In this document: positions 7,058 to 59,820 of the stretch, piece after piece
Layout of the letters: each line of letters opens with the position of its first letter
Numbering within the stretch: position 1 is the first letter of the stretch
The notes under the pieces: generated by a model
Database searches by the model: none
What the model saw: only the letters and a program-made list of their open reading frames with translations
Told to the model about the DNA's origin: nothing
Assembly: GCA_016779205.1 (NCBI GenBank)
Contig: JADHOC010000003.1
Coordinates: 124,001 to 188,000 of the forward strand
DNA: 64,000 nt
Source: Planctomycetota bacterium
GTDB lineage: Bacteria > Planctomycetota > UBA1135 > GCA-002686595
Direction of reading: 5' to 3'
Program-made: the position numbers and the translations under genes

Positions 7058-7930
7058 TCAGCGTCGCCGGATCACGGCGCCGACGAAGCGGTGGTCGCTG
7101 GGGTACTGCCCCTCGACCTCCGTCCAGTCGATCCAGGCCTCGGCGGTCTCGAGGCGGCGGTCGACCAGGACGTGATCGATCATCGCGCCCCGGCGGCCGC
7201 CCCGGAACCCGTGGCCGGTCTTGACCTCGGTGGCGTCGGGGTTGGTGTCGCGGAAGGTGTCGCGGAAGCCGGCCTCGGCGAGGGCCTTGAGCGGCGCGCT
7301 CTGCTCCCCGGCGTTGAAGTCCCCGAGGACCACCGTGGGGAGCTCGGCCCGGCTCGCCGCGAAGCGCCCGATGAGCCGCGCGCTCTCCAGGCGGGCCTGC
7401 TTGCCGATGTGGTCGAAGTGGGTGTTGATGACGCGGATGACCCGCCCTTCGTCCTCGCGGTCCGCCAGCTCGGCCCAGGTCGCGATACGGGTGAGCGCCG
7501 CGTCCTAGCCCACCGCCCCGAGCTTGTCCTCCGGCGCCAGCCGGAACGTGCCCGCGGCGCGGACCGTGAAGCGCCGCCCGTCCACGAGCAGCGCGGTCCA
7601 CTCACCGCGGTCGCCCCCATCTCGACCCTCGCCGATCACCAGGTGGTGCGGGAAGCGCGCGCGCACCTCGTCCACCTGGAAGCGGAGCGCCTCCTGGAGC
7701 CCGAGGACATCGGGCCGGGCGGCCTCGAGGGTGCTGAGCGCGAGCTCGCGGCGCAGCGGCCAGGCGTGGGCGCCGTCCCGCGCCGTCCCGTAGCGGACGT
7801 TGGCCGTCAGCGTCCGGATCGCCGGAGGCGCCGGCTCCGGGTCGTCCCCGGCGGCGAGGGGGGCGAGGAGGGAGGCGAGCGCCAGCAGCACGAGGCCGCG
7901 GAGCACGGTGGTGATCCTGAAGGTCGTCAT
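7058..7930 (-). pseudogene. Endonuclease/exonuclease/phosphatase (EEP) family hydrolase interrupted by one in-frame TAG
   Basis: Read through, the frame encodes 290 residues with a signal peptide (LRGLVLLALASLLAPLAAG) and all the usual EEP motifs: TANVRYGT, LGLQEALRFQV (metal-binding Glu), NTHFDHIG, VVLGDFNAG, MIDHVLV and PSDHRF (catalytic His). A single TAG at 7505-7507 breaks it after ...KLGAVG; the following residues (DAALTRIATWAEL) continue the same frame. The family normally has Gly-Trp at this place, so one transition in TGG would explain the stop. It starts 1 base after the DctP stop on the same strand, so the two form an operon. It may be a recent pseudogene, a sequencing or assembly error, or a read-through gene; codon use on both sides of the stop looks intact. 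Confidence 0.85.
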
Positions 7931-55486: not shown

Positions 55487-56131
55487 TCAGTCCTCGCCCA
55501 GCGTCGAGCGCAGCTTGTCCCCCAGCTTGGACTCGGCCCGTCGGAGCATCATCCGCACGGCGTCCTCGCTCTTCCCGCCCATGCGCTCGCCCGCCTGGCG
55601 AAGGGGGAGGCCCTCGAAGAAGACCAGGGAGATGGCCTTTCGGTGCTCGGGGGACAGCTCGGTCAACGACTCCCTCAGGAGGTCGAAGTTCTCATCACGC
55701 TGGACCACCTTGGTGACAGAGAGGTCGCTACTCACGAACTCCATCGGAGTGGGTGCCTCGCCCCCATCGGAGGCGCCGGCGTCCATCGCCCGCTCCTTGG
55801 AGAGATCTCGCTTGCCCGCCGAGTAGAACTCGGCCTTGTCGCGGATCTTGTTCTGCAGGATCTGGACCAGCCAGCGCAGGAGCGACCCCTGGCCCTGGTA
55901 CTGGTACCGGCTGAAGTCCCGGGTCGCCTCACGGAACGTGGTCTGCGCGAGGTCGTCCGGGTCCTCCTTCAGGCGGAGCCGCGGACCGAGCTTGCGCCGG
56001 GCCACCTCGACCATGGTCTGGTGATAACGAGCGAACAGGTCGTTCAACGCATCCGCGTCGCCCTCGTGCGCCGCGTCGACCAGCTTCCTGACCTCGTCGT
56101 CGCCGCCCTCGTTCTTTGTCTCGTCCGCCAT
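55487..56131 (-). CDS. ECF-type RNA polymerase sigma factor (internal start within the ligA frame)
   Basis: The 214-residue protein from ATG 56131 has sigma region 2 (ALNDLFARYHQTMVEVARRKLG ... DPDDLAQTTFREATRDF) and region 4 (ESLTELSPEHRKAISLVFFEGLPLRQAGERMG ... DAVRMMLRRAESKL), with a short linker, like the ECF sigma factors abundant in Planctomycetota. It has no anti-sigma gene next to it. The sequence GAGGGGCGAGG before the ATG could act as a weak ribosome site. Because there is no stop between ligA and this gene, the factor may be made both alone and as a LigA fusion, or the ligA stop has been lost. Target promoters are unknown. Confidence 0.75.
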   Translation of the reverse strand: MADETKNEGGDDEVRKLVDAAHEGDADALNDLFARYHQTMVEVARRKLGPRLRLKEDPDDLAQTTFREATRDFSRYQYQGQGSLLRWLVQILQNKIRDKAEFYSAGKRDLSKERAMDAGASDGGEAPTPMEFVSSDLSVTKVVQRDENFDLLRESLTELSPEHRKAISLVFFEGLPLRQAGERMGGKSEDAVRMMLRRAESKLGDKLRSTLGED

Positions 56132-58450
56132 GGCAGGTCCAGAGTCTAGCCTCGCCCCTCGGGGAGTGCCCCGGTGGAGACCGGACTCCGGCTCACGGAC
56201 TTTTTCGTCCGCTCCACTCCGCTCGGCGCGGTCAAATCCCCACTTCTCTCCGCCCCTGTCCCCGTCCGAGCCGTCGGCGCCGCCCGAACCGCCGTCGGCC
56301 TCCACGGGGGACGCTCCCTGCCCCGCCAGCCGGCCGAGGAAGTCCGCCTCGAGCAGGACCGTGACGCCCAGCGCCTCGGCCTTCTTCGCCTTCGAGCCGG
56401 GCTTGCCCCCGACCACGAGGAACGTGGTCTTGGCGCTCACCGAGGAGGCCACGCGCCCCCCCTGGGACTCCACCGCCTTCTTGGCCTCGAACCGGCTCAT
56501 GCCCTCGAGGGTGCCGGTGAAGACCACCGTCGTCCCGTCGAAGGCGGACCCGCCTGAGGAGGCGTCCTCGGCCTCGATCTCGACCCCGCTCGCGAGCAAC
56601 GCCTCGATGAGCTCGAGGTTCCTGGGCTCGGCGAACCACGCCACGATCCGGGCCCCGACCTCCTCGCCGATCCCATCCACCACGATCAGCTGCTCGAGGG
56701 TGGCCCCCTGGACCTGATCCAGCTCATGGAAGTGACGGGCCAGGAGGCGCGCGGTGGCGCCGCCGACCTCGGGGATGGAGAGGGCCGCCAGGAATCGATC
56801 CAGGGGTGCCTTCCGCGCCTCGTCGAGCTCGCGCTTCAGGTTGTCCACGGACTTCTGCCCCCACCGATCGAGGGCCACGAGCTCCGGGTCCGGCACCTCC
56901 CTCAGGGCGAAGAGGCCGGCGGGCGACACCAGCAGCTCGGCGTCGAAGAGCTGCACGATCATCTTCTCGCCCAGGGAGTCGATCTCGAATCCGCTCCGGC
57001 CCGCCATGTGCACGGTCCGTCCGATCACCTGGGGGCGACATCCGTAGACGTTGGGGCAGCGCACGTACTTGCCCTCTCGGACGACCTTGGCGCCGCAGGC
57101 AGGGCACACCTCGGGCATGGCGAACGCCTCGCGGTGCTCCACGATGACGCCGGCCCGACGGGCGCCCTCCGCGTCCAGCAGGCTCTCCGGGATAGCCTCG
57201 GCCCAACCGGCCGGCGCCCGGTCGGGGCCCGCCTTGGAGACGCCGGTGATCTGCGGGATCACGTCCCCCGCACGCTTCACCAGCACCCGGTCACCGGGCC
57301 TCGCGCCCAGGGTCAGGACGTAGTCCTCGTTGTGCAGGGTCGCGTGCCGGACGGTGACCCCGAGCACCTCGACGGGGTCCACGTGGGCCCGCGGGGTGAG
57401 GCGACCGTTGACCCCCACCTGGATCTCGATCGCCCGCAGGATCGTGGTGGCCTCCACGGGCGCAAACTTGTGGGCGTACTGCCACTTGGTGGCGCGGGCC
57501 GTGCTCCCCAGGCGATCCCGGAGCTCCACGTCGTCCAGCTTGGCCACGATCCCGTCCATCTCGAAGGGGATCTCGTCGCGCCGCTCCTCCATGGAGGCGT
57601 GGTACTGCAGGCAGCCCTCGATCCCCTGCACCGTGGCGTCCTCGCTCGGCGGCGAGAAGCCCCACTCGGTCAGCAGGGCCAGCCGCGCCGCATGGGAGGC
57701 GGGCAGGTCCACACCCTCGCAGCGCACGATCGCGTAGGGGTGGAACTCCAGCGGGTATCGACGCACCTCCGAGGGGTCGCTGCGGCGCAGGGCGCCGGCC
57801 GTTGCGTTGCGCGCGTTGGCCAGGGTGGGCTGCCCGCGCTCCTCCCGGTACACGTTGAAGCGGTCGAACCGATCGCGCGCGATGAGTACCTCCCCGCGCA
57901 CCTCGAGCAGCGCAGGGGGCGCGTCGAGGCCGAGGCGCACGGGGACGTCCCGCACGGTCCGCAGGTTGGCGGTGATGTCCTCGCCCGTGGTGCCGTCCCC
58001 CCGGGTCAGGCCCTGGACGAAGACCCCGTCCCGGTAGATGAGCGCCGCGGAGACCCCGTCGAACTTCGGCTCCACGTGCCACGTGAGCTCCTCCCCTTCC
58101 TCGAGCCCGAGGAATCGGTGCACCTTGGTGGCGAAGTCCCGCGCCTCCTCGGCGCTCCGCAGGCTCTCGATGGACAGCATCGAGACCGCGTGTCGGACCT
58201 TGTCGAAGCTGTCCCCCTCGGGCAGCGGCGCCCCCACCCTCTGGGACGGGCTCTCGGGCGTGATGAGCTTGGGGTGCTCCCCTTCCAGCTCCTTGAGCTC
58301 GCGGAAGAGCGCGTCGTATTCGGCGTCCGAGATCTCGATGCGCCCCTCGTTGTAGTAGAGCTGGTCGTGCCGGAGGATCTCCCCGCGCAGCCAGTCGAGG
58401 CGCTCTGCGGGCCCCGCACCCTTGGACGGCGCGGGCGTCACCGGGTCCAC
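55487..58450 (-). CDS. ligA: NAD-dependent DNA ligase whose frame continues without a stop into an ECF sigma factor
   Basis: The first part (to about residue 715) is a complete LigA, which seals nicks in DNA using NAD+: an Ia-like start (LRGEILRHDQLYYNEGRIEISD), adenylation-site Lys in EPKFDGVSA, an OB-fold, a zinc finger (CPACGAKV ... CPNVYGC), helix-hairpin-helix repeats, and a BRCT domain (TVVFTGTLEGMSRFEAKKAV). The expected end is soon after LLEADFLGRLAGQG. Instead the frame stays open through about 60 low-complexity residues and runs into the sigma factor at 56131. In another frame a TGA lies near 56232, so one base change or indel could have joined them. The start is probably GTG 58450, near the family N-terminus; ATG 58594 is an alternative. 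Confidence 0.88.
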   Translation of the reverse strand: MDPVTPAPSKGAGPAERLDWLRGEILRHDQLYYNEGRIEISDAEYDALFRELKELEGEHPKLITPESPSQRVGAPLPEGDSFDKVRHAVSMLSIESLRSAEEARDFATKVHRFLGLEEGEELTWHVEPKFDGVSAALIYRDGVFVQGLTRGDGTTGEDITANLRTVRDVPVRLGLDAPPALLEVRGEVLIARDRFDRFNVYREERGQPTLANARNATAGALRRSDPSEVRRYPLEFHPYAIVRCEGVDLPASHAARLALLTEWGFSPPSEDATVQGIEGCLQYHASMEERRDEIPFEMDGIVAKLDDVELRDRLGSTARATKWQYAHKFAPVEATTILRAIEIQVGVNGRLTPRAHVDPVEVLGVTVRHATLHNEDYVLTLGARPGDRVLVKRAGDVIPQITGVSKAGPDRAPAGWAEAIPESLLDAEGARRAGVIVEHREAFAMPEVCPACGAKVVREGKYVRCPNVYGCRPQVIGRTVHMAGRSGFEIDSLGEKMIVQLFDAELLVSPAGLFALREVPDPELVALDRWGQKSVDNLKRELDEARKAPLDRFLAALSIPEVGGATARLLARHFHELDQVQGATLEQLIVVDGIGEEVGARIVAWFAEPRNLELIEALLASGVEIEAEDASSGGSAFDGTTVVFTGTLEGMSRFEAKKAVESQGGRVASSVSAKTTFLVVGGKPGSKAKKAEALGVTVLLEADFLGRLAGQGASPVEADGGSGGADGSDGDRGGEKWGFDRAERSGADEKVREPESGLHRGTPRGARLDSGPAMADETKNEGGDDEVRKLVDAAHEGDADALNDLFARYHQTMVEVARRKLGPRLRLKEDPDDLAQTTFREATRDFSRYQYQGQGSLLRWLVQILQNKIRDKAEFYSAGKRDLSKERAMDAGASDGGEAPTPMEFVSSDLSVTKVVQRDENFDLLRESLTELSPEHRKAISLVFFEGLPLRQAGERMGGKSEDAVRMMLRRAESKLGDKLRSTLGED

Positions 58451-58867
58451 TCCATCGAAAGGGCGGGGGTCGGACGCCGGAGGTCCGCTCCAGCCCCTCG
58501 CCGGGTCTGCCGCCCCGCCTGCCGCTCCTGTCCGCGCCCCTCGCGGCCGGTGCTCCCCGAGGCCCCCGCGCGCTCCTCCTGCTGCCGTCGCCATTCCATG
58601 GGCGAGAGTGTCCCGCACCGAGGGGGCGGAGTCCATGCAGGAGCCCGCGACCAGGACCAGGATCCCCGCTCCCCCTCGGAGCACGCCGTCCCCGGCCCTT
58701 AGCCAAGGGGGCGCCTGCACCCCGGGCGCCACCGGCCCCTTGCGTAGGGGTCCCCCGCCTGCGGCCCCCTCGCTCGCCCATCGAGTCGTCCCCTGCTCCC
58801 TCGGTCCCATGCAGCAGGGACGGGCCGCGGGGGCATCGGTGACCGCCTGGCGGAGATTCTGCGCCGA
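58451..58867. other. 417-base gap between cdd and ligA with no supported gene
   Basis: The ligA frame is open upstream across most of this region, but its translation is low-complexity (Gly/Ala/Arg/Pro) and looks non-coding. I see small GC inverted repeats (for example GGCGCC arms near 58710-58730) but no clear promoter. If ATG 58594 is the real ligA start, about 145 bases of it are coding. Confidence 0.5.
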
Positions 58868-59326
58868 TCAGTCCGCCAGCTGATCGCCCCGGAAGGCGTC
58901 CGGCAGCAGCTCGTCCACGGACCACCGGGCGGTGGTGCCATCCGCGGCCTCGGCCACCACGGTCGCGTGGGGCGCGAACTCCGCGAGCCACTGGCGACAG
59001 GCGCCGCAAGGCGCCGTGGGGGTGTCCGCGTCCGTCCGGATGGCGACCACGGTGATCGGCGGGCCGAGGGCGGCTCCCTCAGCGTCAGGACCCGCGGCCC
59101 TGAGCGTGGCCAGCCGCGTGGAGAGGGCGTTGCGCTCCGCGCACAGGGTCAGGCCGAAGCTCGCGCTCTCCACGTTGCAGCCGCTGAAGAGGGCCCCCTC
59201 TGCGTCGAGCACCGCCGCTCCCACCCTGAAGCGTGAGTAGGGCGCGTACGCAGCATCCTTCACGGAGCGGGCCGCCTCGAGGGCCCGCGCGACGGCGGCG
59301 TCATGGGGTTCGGGGGACTGGGACAC
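58868..59326 (-). CDS. cdd: Cytidine deaminase
   Basis: This enzyme deaminates cytidine and deoxycytidine for pyrimidine salvage. The catalytic core is complete: AAYAPYSRFRVGAAV, GCNVESASFGLTLCAERNAL (zinc Cys and catalytic Glu) and PCGACRQWLAEF (two more zinc Cys). The start is uncertain. GTG 59326 gives 152 residues and fits the family N-terminus; ATG 59395 overlaps the stop of the upstream DUF669-like gene (TAATG) but adds 23 residues with non-coding-like codons. Either way it follows the DUF669-like gene closely and may be co-transcribed. Confidence 0.92.
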   Translation of the reverse strand: MSQSPEPHDAAVARALEAARSVKDAAYAPYSRFRVGAAVLDAEGALFSGCNVESASFGLTLCAERNALSTRLATLRAAGPDAEGAALGPPITVVAIRTDADTPTAPCGACRQWLAEFAPHATVVAEAADGTTARWSVDELLPDAFRGDQLAD

Positions 59327-59394
59327 CCCGTGAGCTTCACGCCCTTGGCCCCCGTGTTCAAGCCCCCCGGGCCGTTCCCAGGCGGGCTGCGGCA

Positions 59395-59820
59395 TTACCC
59401 GAGGAGCCCGGCGACCTCCCGCTCGGAGCGGATCGCCCCCCAGCCGTCGTAGGCCACGCGGCTCCGCCGAAGGAGGCGGCCGTCGCTCTCCCGCCGGGAC
59501 TCCTGGGTGGCGATCCGCACCATGGCCTCCCGGCCCAGGAGCTCCTCGGGCTCCACATCCATGGACACGGTCACGTCGAAGCCCAGGGCCGCCAGCACCA
59601 TGCGCACCCGCCGCAGGCCACGGTCGGTGAAGTTCAGCCAATCGAGCACCGCGGTCCGACCCGCCAGGTCGCCACCCACCAGCTCCATGCGGAGCATCCA
59701 GGCCGCCCGGCCGGCCGCCCCCTCCACCGGTCGCACCTCGCCGACGCGCATCCGGTACTCGCCGTCCTCCACGACGACGAAGTCGTCCACGTCCGCTCCC
59801 TCACTGGCCTCAATCCGCAT
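59395..59820 (-). CDS. DUF669-like protein (phage-type single-strand DNA-binding-related)
   Basis: The 141-residue protein resembles DUF669 proteins: DGEYRMRVGEVRPVEGAAG ... WMLRMELVGGDLAGRTAVLDWLNFTDRGLRRVRMVLAALG ... PEELLGREAMVRIATQESR. Such proteins are usually in phage recombination or replication modules and have an OB-like fold. Here it sits alone among chromosomal genes with normal codon use, and is followed by cdd. GGAG lies about 9 bases before the ATG. The function is probably nucleic-acid binding (inference). Confidence 0.65.
   Translation of the reverse strand: MRIEASEGADVDDFVVVEDGEYRMRVGEVRPVEGAAGRAAWMLRMELVGGDLAGRTAVLDWLNFTDRGLRRVRMVLAALGFDVTVSMDVEPEELLGREAMVRIATQESRRESDGRLLRRSRVAYDGWGAIRSEREVAGLLG

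Follow-up and report, generated by a model that had tools for sequence, protein, structure and literature searches.

An open reading frame spanning DNA ligase and an ECF sigma factor in a planctomycete draft genome: very probably two separate neighbours joined by one stop-codon base

Background

The NAD-dependent DNA ligase LigA (TIGR00575 / PRK07956) is essential, and its usual, though not strictly defining, end lies shortly after the BRCT domain. The ligase described here has the full adenylation-OB-HHH-BRCT series and scores above the family cut-offs (641 bits against TIGR00575, for which the curated cut-off is 444), but the usual end is missing in the window, i.e. the whole stretch of 64,000 nucleotides that was analysed, and in the window only. 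The frame continues into a sigma factor with regions 2 and 4 that belongs to the ECF families TIGR02937 (67.5 bits, cut-off 42.9) and PF07638 (38.6 bits, cut-off 21.1) and is distinctive among them in adjoining ligA directly downstream throughout the bacterial family studied here. The nearest named subfamily is the Planctomycetaceae group Sig-70_plancto1 (TIGR02984), of which it is a relative rather than a member, as it scores 106.3 bits and thus falls under the curated cut-off of 183.75.

The orthologous ligA-sigma pair is present, in the same order and on the same strand as in the window, in the complete genome of Planctomycetes bacterium Poly30 (CP036434) and in its relatives. This strain, which we take to be Saltatorellus ferox, is a congener of the organism from which the window comes. 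In Poly30 and its relatives, unlike in the window, the ligA stop codon separates the two genes. Searching the literature for a planctomycete protein that joins ligase and sigma factor returned no paper matching every term of the search.

Results and discussion

The window lies on a contig labelled C16 of a planctomycete draft genome (G000; 36 contigs, 90.5% complete), and nearly all of the relatives of this genome are metagenome-assembled. An uninterrupted minus-strand frame leading from LigA through its BRCT domain and a low-complexity segment to a complete ECF sigma factor had been reported in a preliminary description of the sequence. It was recovered here, with a segment of ~64 residues and its end at 55487. 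The open reading frame extends from 55487 to 58810 (1107 aa counted from the first ATG) without an internal stop, and Pfam places along it the ligase adenylation, OB, HHH and BRCT domains (BRCT at residues 757-820), followed by Sigma70_ECF (residues 906-1101) with both regions 2 and 4. The alignment of five congeneric genomes indicates that the conserved ligA start is probably the GTG at 58441 rather than 58450, and counted from this GTG the joined frame comprises 984 residues. The features of the locus are listed in Table 1.

Table 1. Features of the ligA-sigma locus (positions in the window)
Feature	Position	Strand	Basis
ligA, NAD-dependent DNA ligase, from GTG start to the end of a short Gly-rich, acidic tail after BRCT	56243..58441	-	Pfam/NCBIfam matches; start conserved in five congeneric genomes
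TGG codon at the ligA stop position (TGA in sister genome G007)	56240..56242	-	Gap-free alignment
Once intergenic stretch of 36 codons (108 nt) in which the ligA frame is open by chance; coding constraint not apparent	56132..56239	-	
TAGACT, -10-like element, 11 nt 5' of the sigma ATG	56143..56148	-	Same element in G002, G004, G007 and G008
ECF-type sigma factor gene, 214 aa and TGA stop, ATG at 56131	55487..56131	-	Pfam/NCBIfam; orthologue in 75/81 family genomes

The nearest relative is G007 (contig CALJGV010000019.1), whose LigA and sigma factor are 97.6% and 99.5% identical to those of the window. From ligA to the end of the sigma gene, 2925 nt were aligned with zero gaps; at 56242-56240 the window has TGG and G007 has TGA, so that a single A/G difference removes the ligA stop (GAGAAGTGAGGATTTGACC in G007, GAGAAGTGGGGATTTGACC in the window). 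The 36 codons past this position are open in both genomes until the sigma ATG is reached. A frameshift error, one of the origins proposed in the preliminary description, is ruled out as the cause of the joining by the gap-free alignment. The out-of-frame TGA that it had pointed to near 56232 is indeed present, but it is irrelevant to the joining, the codon that matters being the TGG. Its proposal that the stop was lost and the sigma factor has an internal start, on the other hand, is supported by the TGA to TGG substitution and by the retention of the sigma factor's own start. The stop loss is private to the window's genome, which is the single genome of its species in the comparison, so that the change could be fixed in the species. 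There was no hint of a shift to an altered genetic code, and this explanation was rejected, as TGA, TAG and TAA each terminate ligA in relatives and the sigma gene itself ends with TGA.

The joining stretch is less GC-rich at third codon positions than either gene, as had been noted before (GC3 of 0.61, compared to 0.95 in ligA and 0.91 in the sigma gene). Between the window's genome and G007 it is 89.8% identical, with a pN of 0.089 and a pS of 0.137, whereas the corresponding values are 0.012 and 0.156 for ligA and 0.002 and 0.163 for the sigma gene. The resulting pN/pS is ~0.65 in the linker, a figure drawn from few sites, compared to 0.08 and 0.01 in ligA and the sigma gene, respectively, and the linker differences are spread evenly over the three codon positions (3, 4 and 4). 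On this small sample of 11 differences, the stretch drifts as spacer DNA does. Given the base composition of the linker, the probability that 36 codons stay open is ~0.44, and read-through into the sigma gene is therefore unremarkable in the absence of the ligA stop.

The fusion was found in none of the 60 same-family relatives in which both genes were read. In every one of them ligA lies upstream of the sigma gene on the same strand and stops 1 to 34 codons past the conserved end of BRCT; these separate genes with an in-frame stop after BRCT are the very arrangement that the preliminary description had named as incompatible with a fusion. Between the ligA stop and the sigma match lie 10 to 2935 nt, and the relative frame phases of the two genes (21, 24 and 15 relatives) are near random, as expected without selection on the frame. 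In eight of these relatives, nothing but one ligA stop lies between the two frames, and one base change thus suffices for joining. The tail beyond BRCT also varies within the clade, from 19 to 34 codons among the closest relatives. Long open frames over the sigma gene in G071, G096 and G043 (972-1022 aa) were considered as additional fusions and rejected, since ligA ends there 7 to 17 codons past BRCT and the long frame crosses it out of phase; they are a reminder of how readily long open frames arise. One sigma orthologue (L155, in G085) contains an in-frame TAG.

The window sequence immediately 5' of the sigma ATG is GAGGCTAGACTCTGGACCTGCCATGG. At 44 family loci, TANNNT boxes concentrate 5 to 24 nt 5' of the sigma start (31 boxes), against a background of 0 to 2 boxes per 20-nt stretch beyond 60 nt upstream. 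With a stricter choice of start, the box is present at 31 of 59 loci and hence is not universal. This clustering points to a putative short-leader promoter for the sigma gene. A strict sigma70-type scan of positions 55900-56600 found no -35/-10 pair, so that the proposed promoter role of TAGACT is deduced from its conserved position alone; a terminator scan of the same interval found none. At two other loci (L055, in G010, and L082) the ligA stop is only ~10 nt from the sigma ATG, and its TAG is at the same time the opening triplet of TAGAAT, the -10-like box of the sigma gene.

The order DUF669 - cdd (cytidine deaminase) - ligA - ECF sigma is found family-wide (window 55487-59820, minus strand; loci L072-L106), and an apparent XdhC-like gene, assigned by reading of the sequence, lies further downstream in many loci. 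Of the 61 relatives with enough upstream sequence read, 60 carry the sigma orthologue after ligA. The one-contig genome G093 (L161) is the only genome read in which the 3.5 kb upstream of a sigma orthologue contain no ligA. Among order-level relatives from other families, the sigma gene adjoins ligA in none of the 14 ligA loci read.

We therefore consider it very probable that two ancient, separate neighbours have been joined in one sequence by the change of TGA to TGG and by 36 in-phase codons open by chance, either through a point mutation of very recent date or through a wrong base in the metagenome-derived consensus, and not as a selected fusion. Should the mutation be real, a LigA-sigma read-through product of ~984 aa is predicted from the ligA transcript, and the start and the promoter-like element of the sigma gene would still allow free sigma factor to be produced.

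Contig C16 was compared with the matching parts of G007 over ~94 genes, stop differences being counted on C16 only. Two further genes were found to be cut by single-base G/A stop differences. One codes for an Exo_endo_phos (endonuclease/exonuclease/phosphatase) protein (window 7505-7930, minus strand, continuing to ~7061) and has an in-frame TAG where G007 has TGG; 149 conserved codons lie beyond it, and G002 and G004 are open there. The other, an OPT oligopeptide-transporter gene located outside the window (L192; C16:237030-238925, plus strand), has an in-frame TGA where G007 has TGG, followed by 258 conserved codons, and is open in G002. In G004 a TAG occurs in the same transporter gene. Such G/A differences, which fall on stop or tryptophan codons of undecayed genes, fit either consensus errors or very recent mutations, and with two other conserved genes of C16 cut in this way, the two origins of the lost ligA stop are about equally likely.

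A real and recent stop loss, giving LigA-sigma read-through in some or all cells, has close to an even chance of being the correct explanation. It would be effectively neutral, since an extension at the C-terminus is presumably tolerated by LigA and the start and promoter of the sigma gene are still in place. A single transition is enough to produce it, the length of the tail after BRCT was variable in the clade already, and the sigma gene still has its start and its -10-like box; however, no further case occurs among the 60 relatives, and the sequence data are identical to those expected from an error. A consensus base error, in which the real genome would have TGA and the assembly would be wrong by one base, we rate at slightly below an even chance. 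The two other conserved genes of C16 cut by G/A differences, with undecayed sequence after the stop, argue for it, as do the essential nature of LigA and the lack of stop loss in any relative read, but no indel-type errors stood out among the ~94 genes compared, and real recent mutations could produce the same picture.

A selected, functional fusion, tethering the sigma factor to DNA ligase and coupling repair to transcription as the preliminary description had suggested, is very improbable. In its favour are the open frame and the completeness of both domain sets, but the arrangement is absent from all relatives, the phases of the genes are near random in them, the linker has no visible coding constraint and the sigma gene retains an independent start and a promoter-like element. 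Had a fusion arisen only after the divergence from G007, its linker would itself show little constraint. It is likewise highly doubtful that the stop loss is fixed in the species and yields a functional LigA-sigma protein, with part of the sigma factor tethered to the ligase alongside a free form.

Conclusions

In a GC-rich genome, one base of a stop codon can make conserved neighbours pass convincingly for a fusion of essential proteins, and caution is needed with such apparent fusions, which comparison with relatives settles. The conserved feature of this locus is the family-wide gene order DUF669-cdd-ligA-sigma. As a by-product, the ligA-linked ECF sigma factor found in 75 of 81 genomes of this planctomycete family provides a modest lead on an uncharacterised, housekeeping-like sigma factor.
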